This document shows positions 28,315-32,032 of a stretch of 36,038 bases of DNA, piece by piece (within the stretch, counting starts at the first letter, position 1; each line of letters opens with the position of its first letter). The translations under genes and the position numbers were made by a program. The notes beneath the pieces are model-generated. The model ran no database searches. It was not told the DNA's origin and worked only from the letters and a program-made list of their open reading frames with translations. Source of the DNA: Sphaerochaetaceae bacterium (GTDB lineage: Bacteria > Spirochaetota > Spirochaetia > Sphaerochaetales > Sphaerochaetaceae); NCBI GenBank assembly GCA_016938475.1, contig JAFGUP010000055.1, positions 1 through 36,038 on the forward strand, written 5' to 3'.

Positions 28315-29220
28315 TCACTGGGGAGGAAGAAGTACGGTGTCTATCACATGAATCACCCCGTTTTCTGCTTCAATGTCAGCGATCAGTACGTTGGCTCCCT
28401 GGATCGTTACATCTCCTTTGCTCATTGACAGAATCACATCATCTCCGTTGGCTGTTCTCTGTGAGGCAAAAGCCATCACGTCTGATGCCATGATCTTTCC
28501 CGGAATCACATGATACAGCAGAATATCTGTCAGGGTCGGAATATCTGCCAGAAGAGCTTCCACTGTTCCTGCCGGAAGCTTCGCAAATGCATCATCTGTG
28601 GGAGCAAGTACGGTAAACGGACCCTCAGAATCAAGAGTCACTACCAGACCTGCTGCACCAAGAGCCGCCACCAAGGTTGTGAATCTTCTGTCACCCGCAG
28701 CAATCTGTGCAATACTCGGCGTATCGACGGGAGGGAGCAGTACCGTGTCTATCACATGGATGACGCCGTTTCTCGCTTTGATATCAGTGATGATCACCTT
28801 TGAATCATTCAGCATCACACTGCTGTCTTCAACCCTGATATCGATGCTTTTTCCGTTCGCTGCCTCAGCAGACGAAAGGCCTACTACATCGGAAGCCATA
28901 ACCTCTCCTGAAACCACGTGGTACAGAAGGATATCTGCCAGGGTCGGAATATCTCCCAGAAGAGCTTCCACTGTTCCTGCTGGAAGTTTCGCAAATGCAT
29001 CATCTGTCGGTGCAAACACGGTAAAGGGTCCTTCACCCTGAAGAGACTCCACAAGGTCTGAAGCCTGCAGAGCAGCAACCAGCGTCGTAAAACGGCCATC
29101 TGCTGATGCTATATCAACAATAGTAGGTTCTACCATTGCATCTGATTCCCGTACACCGGCACCAATCACCACAGAAAGTGCCAGAACACTCATGAGTACC
29201 ATAACAATCATCTTCTTCAT
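28315..29220 (-). CDS. Secreted protein with two fasciclin (FAS1) domains
   Basis: The 301-residue product has a signal sequence ([20 protein letters not shown]) and two FAS1 domains, at about residues 33-163 and 168-300. Each has the H1 and H2 boxes: [20 protein letters not shown] or [20 protein letters not shown], and [13 protein letters not shown]. The two domains are nearly identical in places at the DNA level too (around 28540-28620 and 28960-29040), so the second arose by a fairly recent tandem duplication. FAS1 proteins mediate adhesion or matrix contact outside the cell. AGGAG precedes the start. It is divergent from the CarH-like regulator and shares a mirrored operator with it. Confidence 0.92.
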
Positions 29221-29396
29221 AGCTTAACTCCTTTCCTTGTTCTTCAGAACATTCTGTCCAGATACCTTCAGCACAATACTGAATACTACCTTTTTCAGTT
29301 GTTTTCTACTTTCGATACAGTCAAAATAGTCACTACACGCAAGCACGTGTCATGAAATCCTGATACTGTACATCATCTGGAAAGAACATACGTATA

Positions 29397-29413
29397 TGTC
29401 TAACTATAGTCAA
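29397..29413 (-). promoter_or_regulatory. 17-bp element on the fasciclin promoter
   Basis: On the - strand this reads TTGACTATAGTTAGACA. The TTGACT (29413-29408) with TATGTT 17 bp downstream (29390-29385) makes a fair promoter for the fasciclin gene. The whole 17-bp block matches the block at 29455-29471 on the other strand at 13 of 17 positions, with two T(T/A)GAC-like units starting 11 bp apart in each. This suggests a regulator that binds 11-bp direct repeats and covers the -35 region. Confidence 0.6.
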
Positions 29414-29454
29414 CTATTTTTTTTAAAATAAGTACAATTTTTTTAGAATTATAT

Positions 29455-29471
29455 TTGACAAGTCTTAGACA
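29455..29471 (+). promoter_or_regulatory. 17-bp element on the carH-like promoter
   Basis: TTGACAAGTCTTAGACA on the + strand contains a consensus -35 (TTGACA, 29455-29460) for the regulator gene and TAGACA 11 bp further on. A clear -10 is lacking (AACGAT lies at the 17-bp spacing). A further TTGACT is at 29485-29490. It is the mirror partner of the element at 29397-29413. Confidence 0.55.
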
Positions 29472-29519
29472 ATTTAGAACGATATTGACTGGAGCCAGTT
29501 CCCGTGCGATAGTTCCACC

Positions 29520-30512
29520 ATGAGTCCAGATAACGAAAAAATCCATCCGATAGCAGTAGTACAGAGACGCACCGGCCTGTCTGCACATGTCCTGAGAAAG
29601 TGGGAGGATCGATACGCACTGGTTACGCCCGACAGAAGTGAAACCGGACGTCGCCTCTATTCAGAAAATGATATTGCCCGTCTCTCACTTTTATCACGTG
29701 CCCTTCGCACAGGCAGGACGATCGGTCAACTCGCAACGGTGCCTGATGAGCGTCTCATCCAGTATATCGAGCAGGATCAGAACACTATAATACCGGGAGC
29801 TGTCTCTGAGGCAGGTATCGACTCCTCTTCTACCACAATGTCCAGTAAAACAACATCTTCTTCCTCAGATGATACAGCTGTTATGGAAGCAGCTGACCGC
29901 TTTCTGATGCATCTTTTACAGTATCAGGACAGAGAGATGGACATGACTCTTCAGGAGAGCCTGCGTCAGCTTGGAAGGTATGCAGTAATTGATCAGCTCA
30001 TTCCTCTTATCATGAGAAAAATCGGCAATGCATGGCAGAATGGTAAGCTGAGGATCAGTCATGAACATCTTGCGACGTTCCGACTGGAGACGTTCCTTGT
30101 GAGAATCATCGATTCCATCACCCTGCCGCTACATGCTCCGAAGGCAGTTTCCGCAGTCCTTGAAGGACAGAAACATACGCTCGGCACGCTTGCCGCTACA
30201 GTGTCGAGTTGTTCTTCAGGCTACCGTACACAGTTTCTCGGAGAGATGCTTCCTGCAGAGGAGATAGCCAGTGTGGTTCAGACTCTTGATGCAAAGGTTC
30301 TTATTCTCAGTATCACCTACCCGTTCAGAACTGAGACCCTTGAACAGGAGCTACAGAACCTTATACGAATGATGCCGACATCAACAACCATCATTGCAGG
30401 TGGAGATGCGGCGGTCGCCTATCAGCAGCAACATGGCGCTTCTCCGATAGTCATCACTGAAGACTTTGTCTGCCTGAGAAAGGTCCTACAGAACATGTAT
30501 CAGAGACTATAA
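29520..30512 (+). CDS. CarH-like B12-dependent MerR-family regulator
   Basis: The 330-residue protein has an N-terminal MerR helix-turn-helix (residues 8-75: AVVQRRTGLSAHVLRKWEDR, ETGRRLYSENDIARLSLL), a Ser/Thr-rich linker (95-118), a helical domain (119-205) and a Rossmann-like B12-binding domain (207-330). The helical domain has W172, E182 and H183 at the W-x9-EH spacing that senses the upper face of adenosylcobalamin in Thermus CarH, and the B12 domain has H219 in GQKHTLG, the lower-ligand position. It is therefore likely a light- or B12-responsive repressor: tetramer with AdoCbl in the dark, released by light. No ribosome site is visible before the ATG. It is divergent from the fasciclin gene, its probable target. 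Confidence 0.88.
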   Translation: MSPDNEKIHPIAVVQRRTGLSAHVLRKWEDRYALVTPDRSETGRRLYSENDIARLSLLSRALRTGRTIGQLATVPDERLIQYIEQDQNTIIPGAVSEAGIDSSSTTMSSKTTSSSSDDTAVMEAADRFLMHLLQYQDREMDMTLQESLRQLGRYAVIDQLIPLIMRKIGNAWQNGKLRISHEHLATFRLETFLVRIIDSITLPLHAPKAVSAVLEGQKHTLGTLAATVSSCSSGYRTQFLGEMLPAEEIASVVQTLDAKVLILSITYPFRTETLEQELQNLIRMMPTSTTIIAGGDAAVAYQQQHGASPIVITEDFVCLRKVLQNMYQRL

Positions 30513-30599: not shown

Positions 30600-31178
30600 T
30601 CAGAGCGTCTTCTTCTCCATACGCATCTTCTTCATGGGATCCACCATCTCATCGGTTTCATCTGGGAGCCAGTGCTTCTCCCCCTCTTTTCCAAGGATGC
30701 CCTGCATGATATAACCGGTAACAAGAAGCATGAGCAGGGTAAGAGCGAATCTTGCCAGAGTGAAGGCAAGACCAAGGAACTTTGTCTCTACAAGCAGTTG
30801 AGGGATCTTGAGTGCCGCCCAGGAACCGAGAAAAATCACCATATTATGCACGCTTGCTCCCTTTTTCAGTAGAGCTGCCGCCATAGGAAAAGCAACGTAG
30901 AGGGGACCGGTGGGCAAAGTTCCCAACACGAGAGCTAAAAGCGTCCCGCTCATACCGGAACCTCTTCCCATCCACTTCTGCACCTTATCCTTGGGCAGCC
31001 ATACATCCATGATCCCCATCAGGATGAATACCGGTGGAATGATAAGAATCATCTCCATAAAGTATTCACCCACCTTCCGGGAAGATCTGACAGCGACCTC
31101 CGGTGCGAAGACAGAAAGAGCGAGAAAGATAAGAACAAGGAGAAGCGGGATACGGTACTGTTTGAGTAACTGTTTCAT
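30600..31178 (-). CDS. DUF318-type permease, half A
   Basis: This 192-residue membrane protein has about five hydrophobic helices and a charged C-terminal tail. GTLPTGPLYVAFPMAAALLK then KGAS is the conserved core of the DUF318/YraQ permease family. Full-length members have two such halves in one chain; here the halves are separate genes. Its ATG overlaps the stop of half B (31175-31178), so they are translated together. The family includes the methylarsenite exporter ArsP, but neither half contains any Cys, which argues against that substrate. The transported solute is unknown. Confidence 0.8.
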   Translation of the reverse strand: MKQLLKQYRIPLLLVLIFLALSVFAPEVAVRSSRKVGEYFMEMILIIPPVFILMGIMDVWLPKDKVQKWMGRGSGMSGTLLALVLGTLPTGPLYVAFPMAAALLKKGASVHNMVIFLGSWAALKIPQLLVETKFLGLAFTLARFALTLLMLLVTGYIMQGILGKEGEKHWLPDETDEMVDPMKKMRMEKKTL

Positions 31179-31654
31179 AGAATCACCCCCATAAGTGCTG
31201 CGATTACCAGGGCAGACAGAAAACCGAGAGCATTTCTCAAGATTGCGAACGTACGTCCCAGCACCTTCATCTCAAGTGGGAAAGTTGCAAAGCCCACCAT
31301 CACAAGGGTGGTGATGAATGCACTGACTGTCATCACACTTGCCCCGGCTCTCAGGAGAGACCCCGCAAGGGGAAAGGCCACCAGAGAAGGTATCAGGGTC
31401 ACCGCCCCGGCTACAGCAGCTCCGACTGTTGCGAGAAAGCCTGCATCCGCACCTACAAGAGCGGAGATCTTCTCGGGAGTGAGAATACCGAGAGTGAGCC
31501 CGACTATTCCAAGAACGGTCAGCAGACTTGCCCCTGTTTTTCCGAAGGACATCAATGCTACCTTGAGCACTCTCTTTGTTTTCTGCCGGCTGTGTATGAG
31601 CGAAGCAGTGAAGGCTACTCCCGTCAGGCCGTAAATGATAATCAATGTGGTCAT
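31175..31654 (-). CDS. DUF318-type permease, half B
   Basis: This 159-residue membrane protein has four or five hydrophobic helices. VAFPLAGSLLRAGAS followed by KVLGRTFAILR parallels VAFPMAAALLKKGAS and KFLGLAFTLAR of half A, so the two are homologous half-transporters that probably form a heterodimer. AGGAGGGG overlaps the padR-type stop and lies just before its ATG. It sits between the regulator and half A in a three-gene operon. Confidence 0.8.
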   Translation of the reverse strand: MTTLIIIYGLTGVAFTASLIHSRQKTKRVLKVALMSFGKTGASLLTVLGIVGLTLGILTPEKISALVGADAGFLATVGAAVAGAVTLIPSLVAFPLAGSLLRAGASVMTVSAFITTLVMVGFATFPLEMKVLGRTFAILRNALGFLSALVIAALMGVIL

Positions 31655-31663
31655 GGACCCCTC

Positions 31664-32032
31664 CTAGTTCATTCTGTCGTGTATTGTTGTCTCGTATGTC
31701 TCAAGAAGATACTCGATCGTCTCCTTTCTCCTACGAACATGCTGAATCCAGATGTCAAGCATCCGCTTTCCTTCATCAGTGATCTCGTACACACGCCGTT
31801 TCGGTCCCTGAGCACCCTGCTCCCACGAGGAAGCAACCAGAGAGGAACTCTCCATCTTTCTCAGCACCCGGTATAAAGAGCCTATATTCATCTGTTCAGA
31901 GGAAAAACCGAAATTCTCAAGCTTCTCCATGAGCAGATACCCATAGCCCTTTGTATCATACAGAAGGATAAGCAGAGAGATCTCGAGGAACCGTTCCATC
32001 GACTGAGCTCTTCCATGGCAGTGTCCGTTCAT
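31664..32032 (-). CDS. PadR-family transcriptional regulator
   Basis: The 122-residue protein is a PadR-type winged helix repressor: FLEISLLILLYDTKGYGYLL is the first helix region, MNIGSLYRVLRKMESSSLVA the recognition helix, and PKRRVYEITDEGKRML the wing, with a C-terminal dimerisation helix. An N-terminal HCHG (residues 4-7) before the winged helix could bind a metal, as Cys/His-rich N-termini do in some relatives; this is a guess. AGAGGAGA precedes the start. It heads the operon with the two half-permeases and lies behind the operator at 32063-32089, so it probably regulates itself and the transporter. Confidence 0.9.
   Translation of the reverse strand: MNGHCHGRAQSMERFLEISLLILLYDTKGYGYLLMEKLENFGFSSEQMNIGSLYRVLRKMESSSLVASSWEQGAQGPKRRVYEITDEGKRMLDIWIQHVRRRKETIEYLLETYETTIHDRMN

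Follow-up and report, generated by a model that had tools for sequence, protein, structure and literature searches.

A CarH-type, adenosylcobalamin (AdoCbl)-dependent repressor in the genome of a Sphaerochaetaceae bacterium probably controls both its own gene and a divergently transcribed gene for a secreted fasciclin-domain (FAS1) protein, and is probably released by light, although light release is less certain than repression. CarH has been studied almost wholly through carotenoid genes. The arrangement described here recurs in relatives from at least seven phyla and suggests that pigment genes are not the only targets of light control, a surface or protective protein being another. We report the domain make-up and motif residues of the regulator, the mirrored operators between the two genes and their conservation across phyla, all obtained computationally. 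The window (the whole stretch of DNA analysed, 36,038 nucleotides) is one contig, C178, of a 3.07-Mb genome in 395 contigs. A search of open-licence full text found no paper joining CarH or LitR with fasciclin, nor fasciclin with photolyase and MerR; earlier reports are possible. Each component has been described before; what appears to be new is the output gene, together with the twin mirrored operators and the wide spread of the pairing.

The gene pair and its regulator

The two genes lie back to back on either side of an intergenic region of about 300 bp:

28315–29220, minus strand: FAS1 gene; 301 amino acids, with an N-terminal signal-like segment and two fasciclin domains.
29520–30512, plus strand: carH-like regulator gene; 330 amino acids, with a MerR helix–turn–helix (HTH), a four-helix cobalamin cap with Wx9EH and a Rossmann B12 domain with H219xxG.

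Both proteins proved to be as an earlier sequence-only reading had described them. The regulator matches Pfam MerR_1 (4.7e-13) and B12-binding_2 (1.9e-5), with B12-binding below the cut-off, and its partner, the only FAS1 gene of the genome, matches Fasciclin (5.9e-77) in two stretches. Converging on carH from the minus strand (30600–32032 of the window) are a PadR regulator and two short ArsP_1-type permease-like open reading frames. Rfam gave no match in the window, which thus holds no known riboswitch.

The best PDB sequence match of the regulator is Thermus thermophilus CarH (TtCarH), to which it is approximately 22–24% identical over the aligned fold. Its AF2 model (pLDDT 90.8) has the CarH structures 5c8e and 5c8d as top fold matches; the cobalamin-binding part can be overlaid on TtCarH at about 2.5–3.9 Å, whereas the full-length proteins superpose poorly owing to a different arrangement of domains. 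The score against the NCBIfam CarH equivalog NF052513, a narrow model, is 115 bits against a cut-off of 400, and the protein is therefore named CarH-like rather than a CarH equivalog. As in the T. thermophilus and Bacillus megaterium proteins, a MerR HTH is combined with a four-helix Wx9EH cap and a B12 Rossmann domain. The HTH contains an RxWERRY-type recognition helix, of which R26, W28, E29, R31 and Y32 are invariant in 89 relatives.

Wx9EH contacts the adenosyl group and marks CarH, CarA-type proteins being without its Trp (PMC9304148). In the regulator translation, W172, E182, H183 and H219 stand where they had been placed before, and the first three form an intact Wx9EH, the criterion separating CarH from CarA. 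The B12 Rossmann motif of CarH is published as D/ExHx2G-x41-SxT/V-x22–27-GG, and H219, G222, x41, S264xT266, x27 and G294G295 match this spacing, but position 217 is Q and not D/E, which gives QxHxxG for the classic D/ExHxxG of TtCarH; Q at 217 is also found in most of the sampled relatives. Wx9EH and the B12 His are retained in 26–28 of the 28 FAS1-paired relatives (W in 28, E in 27 and H in 26), with Arg as the H183 equivalent in one of them, L030.

The below-cut-off Rossmann match and the D/E-to-Q change are what might be expected of a B12-independent, CarA-like regulator that answers to an antirepressor or redox signal and keeps the cobalamin domain only as a dimerisation module. This is a rather improbable account of a protein that retains W, E, H, the lower His, x41, S and GG with the published spacing, whereas CarA-type proteins are without the Trp. 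Also favouring it are the distant spirochaete homologues L123–L130, which have lost Wx9EH; L123 still has a divergent, overlapping FAS1 gene, and from this case the FAS1–regulator pair may outlive B12 sensing.

Repeat pairs and predicted promoters between the genes

The CarH operator unit mapped in Thermus, Bacillus and myxobacteria is 5′-nnnnTnnACAn-3′, repeated in 11-bp tandem and overlapping a −35 element (PMC9304148). The repeat unit of the window is identical to it, and an 11-bp tandem is present at each of two blocks that face opposite ways:

29455–29471, plus strand: predicted carH-facing operator, TTGACA-N5-TAGACA; two perfect TnnACA units 11 bp apart (8/8).
29397–29413, minus strand: predicted FAS1-facing operator, TTGACT-N5-TAGACA; two TnnACA units 11 bp apart (7/8), the first unit being the FAS1 −35.
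29367–29383, no strand assigned: possible second, weaker repeat pair, TGTACA/TTTCCA (7/8), downstream of the FAS1 −10.
29385–29413, minus strand: predicted FAS1 promoter; −35 TTGACT (29413–29408), 17 bp, −10 TATGTT (29390–29385).
29485–29513, plus strand: predicted carH promoter; −35 TTGACT (29485–29490), 17 bp, −10 GATAGT (29508–29513).

The 17-bp carH-facing block reads TTGACAAGTCTTAGACA and its opposite-strand copy TTGACTATAGTTAGACA; the two are identical at 13 of 17 positions, and the two units 11 bp apart that had been noticed in each were confirmed as TnnACA-type units. The further claim that each block covers the −35 of its own gene is correct for FAS1 but less so for carH, where the best −35, probably 29485–29490, lies outside the block, 14 bp downstream of it. 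The carH −10 ends 6 nt before the ATG (29520), and a leaderless carH mRNA is accordingly predicted. The best promoter ends 5–8 nt 5′ of the carH start codon in 17 of the 28 paired loci and the −35 hexamer begins 34–37 nt upstream of the ATG in most relatives; leaderless carH mRNA is a predicted general trait among FAS1-paired relatives. A repeat-pair unit supplies the best FAS1-facing −35 in 16 of the 28 loci, and the carH −35 coincides with a repeat unit in most loci from Gemmatimonadota. The weak pair at 29367–29383 is not kept at the same place in L030.

The 11-bp tandem nnnnTnnACAn operators of the Thermus and Bacillus CarH proteins likewise overlap promoter elements. Those characterised have three or four repeats, although in some systems one or two are enough if degenerate repeats adjoin them (PMC9304148), and each block here has only two good ones. 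CarH operators at the crt promoters of Sorangiineae and Nannocystineae are similarly divergent, comprise one or two direct repeats plus degenerate repeats and are expected to control both sides (PMC9304148). In all of these systems the targets are carotenoid genes, whereas the two mirrored predicted operators of the window would serve the regulator itself and a divergent partner encoding a secreted FAS1 protein.

TTGACA resembles a σ70 −35 element, so that the unit is easily found in promoters, and a base-frequency estimate gives about one such block per genome by chance. The exact form TTGACNNNNNNTAGACA occurs once in the 3.07-Mb genome, and one block alone is within chance expectation for the whole genome; two mirrored copies within 75 bp, together with their conservation in relatives, exceed it. 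We counted repeat pairs, taken as two TnnACA units 11 bp apart that agree at 7 or more of the 8 letters, in the 28 FAS1-paired loci (190 bp upstream of carH), with 503 upstream regions of other genes from the same loci as controls. Pairs faced carH in 23 of the paired loci, FAS1 in 24 and both ways in 20, against 27, 23 and 4 of the 503 controls. Perfect pairs at spacing 11 numbered 13 facing carH and 13 facing FAS1, with 0–3 at the other spacings from 7 to 21; the relatives in these statistics are not independent but are deeply diverged, and the spacing comparison controls for base composition. Against this spacing-11 peak on both strands, conservation at 38–46% protein identity and several units lying away from any −35, it is highly improbable that the blocks are chance −35-like sequences and the gene pair a neutral neighbourhood.

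Unpaired carH genes also carry pairs of at least 7/8 (28/59 and 37/59 in the two orientations), so the operator would belong to carH generally, FAS1 being one output. In L152, L158, L164, L173, L186 and L189 two FAS1-facing pairs stand 42–43 bp apart, one at the −35 and the other further downstream, which suggests a two-site operator. Many Gemmatimonadota loci, like the window with its weak pair, have a second FAS1-facing pair, 32–43 bp further on.

A genome-wide search for TTGACNNNNNNTWGACA with one mismatch gave matches mostly within coding sequence and no further convincing regulon member; the matches of an operator pattern one base too long, TTGACANNNNNTTAGACA, were left out. Weak candidates in promoter positions were L081 and L063, the latter preceding a 3-oxoacyl-ACP synthase III-like gene.

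Spread of the pairing

Conservation of both blocks in relatives that keep the gene pair had been proposed as a check on the sequence-only reading, and both were found in the two loci L030 and L115. L030 (genome G002, placed in the same genus; regulator 38–39% identical) has the same divergent pair, with TTGACATATCTTAGACA towards carH and TTGACGATAGGTGGACA towards FAS1, and L115 (G084; 46% identical) keeps TTGACTTGTAATTGACA and TTGACTTGTCTTGGACA. The 17-bp form of the carH-facing block is common to the window, L030 and L117. G002 is a fragmented metagenome-assembled genome, and L030 was considered as a possible contaminant contig; no sign of this was seen, its GC content of 0.363 fitting two other G002 contigs (0.361 and 0.383).

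A profile search of 395 Spirochaetia genomes for carH-like loci gave further spirochaete pairs (L117, L118, L119 and L121). From 84,980 species genomes, a scan retrieved 80 named CarH-like loci, 22 of which have FAS1 close to carH, divergently in 21; these are mostly from Gemmatimonadota, with others from Acidobacteriota, Bacteroidota, Verrucomicrobiota, Krumholzibacteriota, Lysobacteraceae and one spirochaete. The paired set comprises these 22 loci, the window, L030, L115, L117, L118, L119 and L121, of which L115 is apparently the same contig as L148. In all there are 28 carH loci with FAS1 nearby, nearly all divergent. They span Spirochaetes, Gemmatimonadota, Acidobacteriota, Bacteroidota, Verrucomicrobiota, Krumholzibacteriota and Gammaproteobacteria. 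With 28 of the 89 sampled loci, in a sample biased toward window-like sequences, FAS1 near carH is commoner than detectable crtI or crtB. On the carH tree, pairing takes 16 changes, at least five of them forced by well-supported branches, and is clustered compared with shuffled labels; its history may be a single origin with losses or repeated pairing.

Among the Gemmatimonadota, L154, L162, L178 and L183 have a two-domain FAS1 lipoprotein-like gene, and two FAS1 genes lie upstream of carH in L162 and L183.

Light, cobalamin and the possible role of FAS1

The earlier reading of a light- or B12-responsive switch on FAS1 is supported by these analyses, the response to light being the inferred part. 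In the mechanism that we infer, AdoCbl-loaded oligomers would occupy the 11-bp tandem repeats at either side of the intergenic region in the dark; the FAS1 −35 and the stretch leading to the carH −35 would be covered, and both promoters kept off. Green, blue or UV light would break the Co–C bond, or B12 would become scarce, and the loosened oligomer would release the DNA, so that FAS1 and carH are transcribed, the latter as a leaderless mRNA. The FAS1 protein would then work on the cell surface or within the periplasm, where protection from photo-oxidation, cell–cell adhesion or both are the most plausible functions.

Light release is the less certain part because Q173, directly after Trp172, replaces His132 of TtCarH, which takes part in the bis-His light state. 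Dissociation largely fails in the H132A variant of TtCarH (PMC10442372). The final light state of TtCarH also requires O2, and relatives of this genome may be anaerobes. The main rival is accordingly a sensor of B12 levels, whose AdoCbl form would keep FAS1 and its own gene repressed under ample B12, with derepression on shortage and light being incidental. The presence of a CobA adenosyltransferase in the genome, in which no PduO-type enzyme was found, would suit either role. We nevertheless regard a mere B12-level sensor as unlikely: the intact Wx9EH contacts the adenosyl group, and the His132-equivalent position varies across the sampled relatives. CtMerR, with Arg there, still changes from tetramer to monomer in light (PMC11796333), and both CtMerR and SasPcob, without that His, photolyse AdoCbl in green light. 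In addition, a photolyase gene lies just downstream of carH in L175, L186 and L204, and crtI/crtB adjoin it in L189, neighbours that tie the CarH–FAS1 module to light stress.

That no carotenoid gene is present had been stated earlier and is true for the window; elsewhere in the genome, however, a carotenoid cluster is divided between contigs C340 and C36. It comprises crtI (cut by the contig end), a phytoene synthase, a Caroten_synth protein, a lycopene cyclase-domain protein, a second desaturase-type protein and a fatty-acid-desaturase-like protein. At the end of C340 (genome G000) and the start of C36 (L142 and L029), the cluster looks complete, with the assembly break within crtI. Neither the divergent promoter of this cluster nor the photolyase gene of this genome shows a visible 11-bp repeat pair. 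With such a cluster in the same genome, FAS1 may belong to a wider programme of protection against light.

The AF2 model of the FAS1 protein (pLDDT 90.9) has TGFBIp, CupS, Rhodobacter sphaeroides Fdp and AstaP as its closest Foldseek folds, and is 47% identical to Fdp (PDB 1w7d) over the aligned fold. Bacterial FAS1 genes have been linked to comparable functions: RSP_1409 of R. sphaeroides responds to photo-oxidative stress (PMC7074977), and an Azospirillum fasciclin under RpoE–ChrR mediates flocculation (as cited in PMC10949492). RSP_1409, the Azospirillum fasciclin and Fdp are controlled by sigma-factor or Prr pathways and not by a B12 photoreceptor. The AstaP proteins of green algae (PDB 8c18) are secreted, light-stress-induced FAS1 proteins that bind carotenoids (PMC10147662, PMC7477208). 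The genome of the window encodes a carotenoid pathway, and its FAS1 protein matches AstaP in fold; carotenoid binding by FAS1 has been described as an algal innovation, a cyanobacterial homologue having failed to bind (PMC10147662).

More speculatively, and with a good deal less confidence than we place in local control of the pair, CarH may not be primarily a carotenoid regulator: across many phyla, twin mirrored operators would let a B12 photoreceptor directly switch a divergent, secreted FAS1 protein with a surface or photoprotective and possibly carotenoid-binding role, through a leaderless, fast-responding carH mRNA. If true, a recurrent CarH–FAS1 module in at least seven phyla would place a cell-surface or secreted protective protein under direct control of B12 photoreception, offer a testable physiological trigger for bacterial FAS1 proteins and provide natural two-sided green-light promoters.

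Other divergent partners of carH were also seen. In the spirochaete locus L114 (2070–3003), a glutathione peroxidase-like gene is transcribed divergently from carH and a TAGACA unit lies upstream, making this gene a possible further oxidative-stress target. In Methylococcales loci such as L196, L208 and L217, a conserved carH-like gene is divergent from a glutamine-dependent NAD synthetase-like gene, identified by eye.
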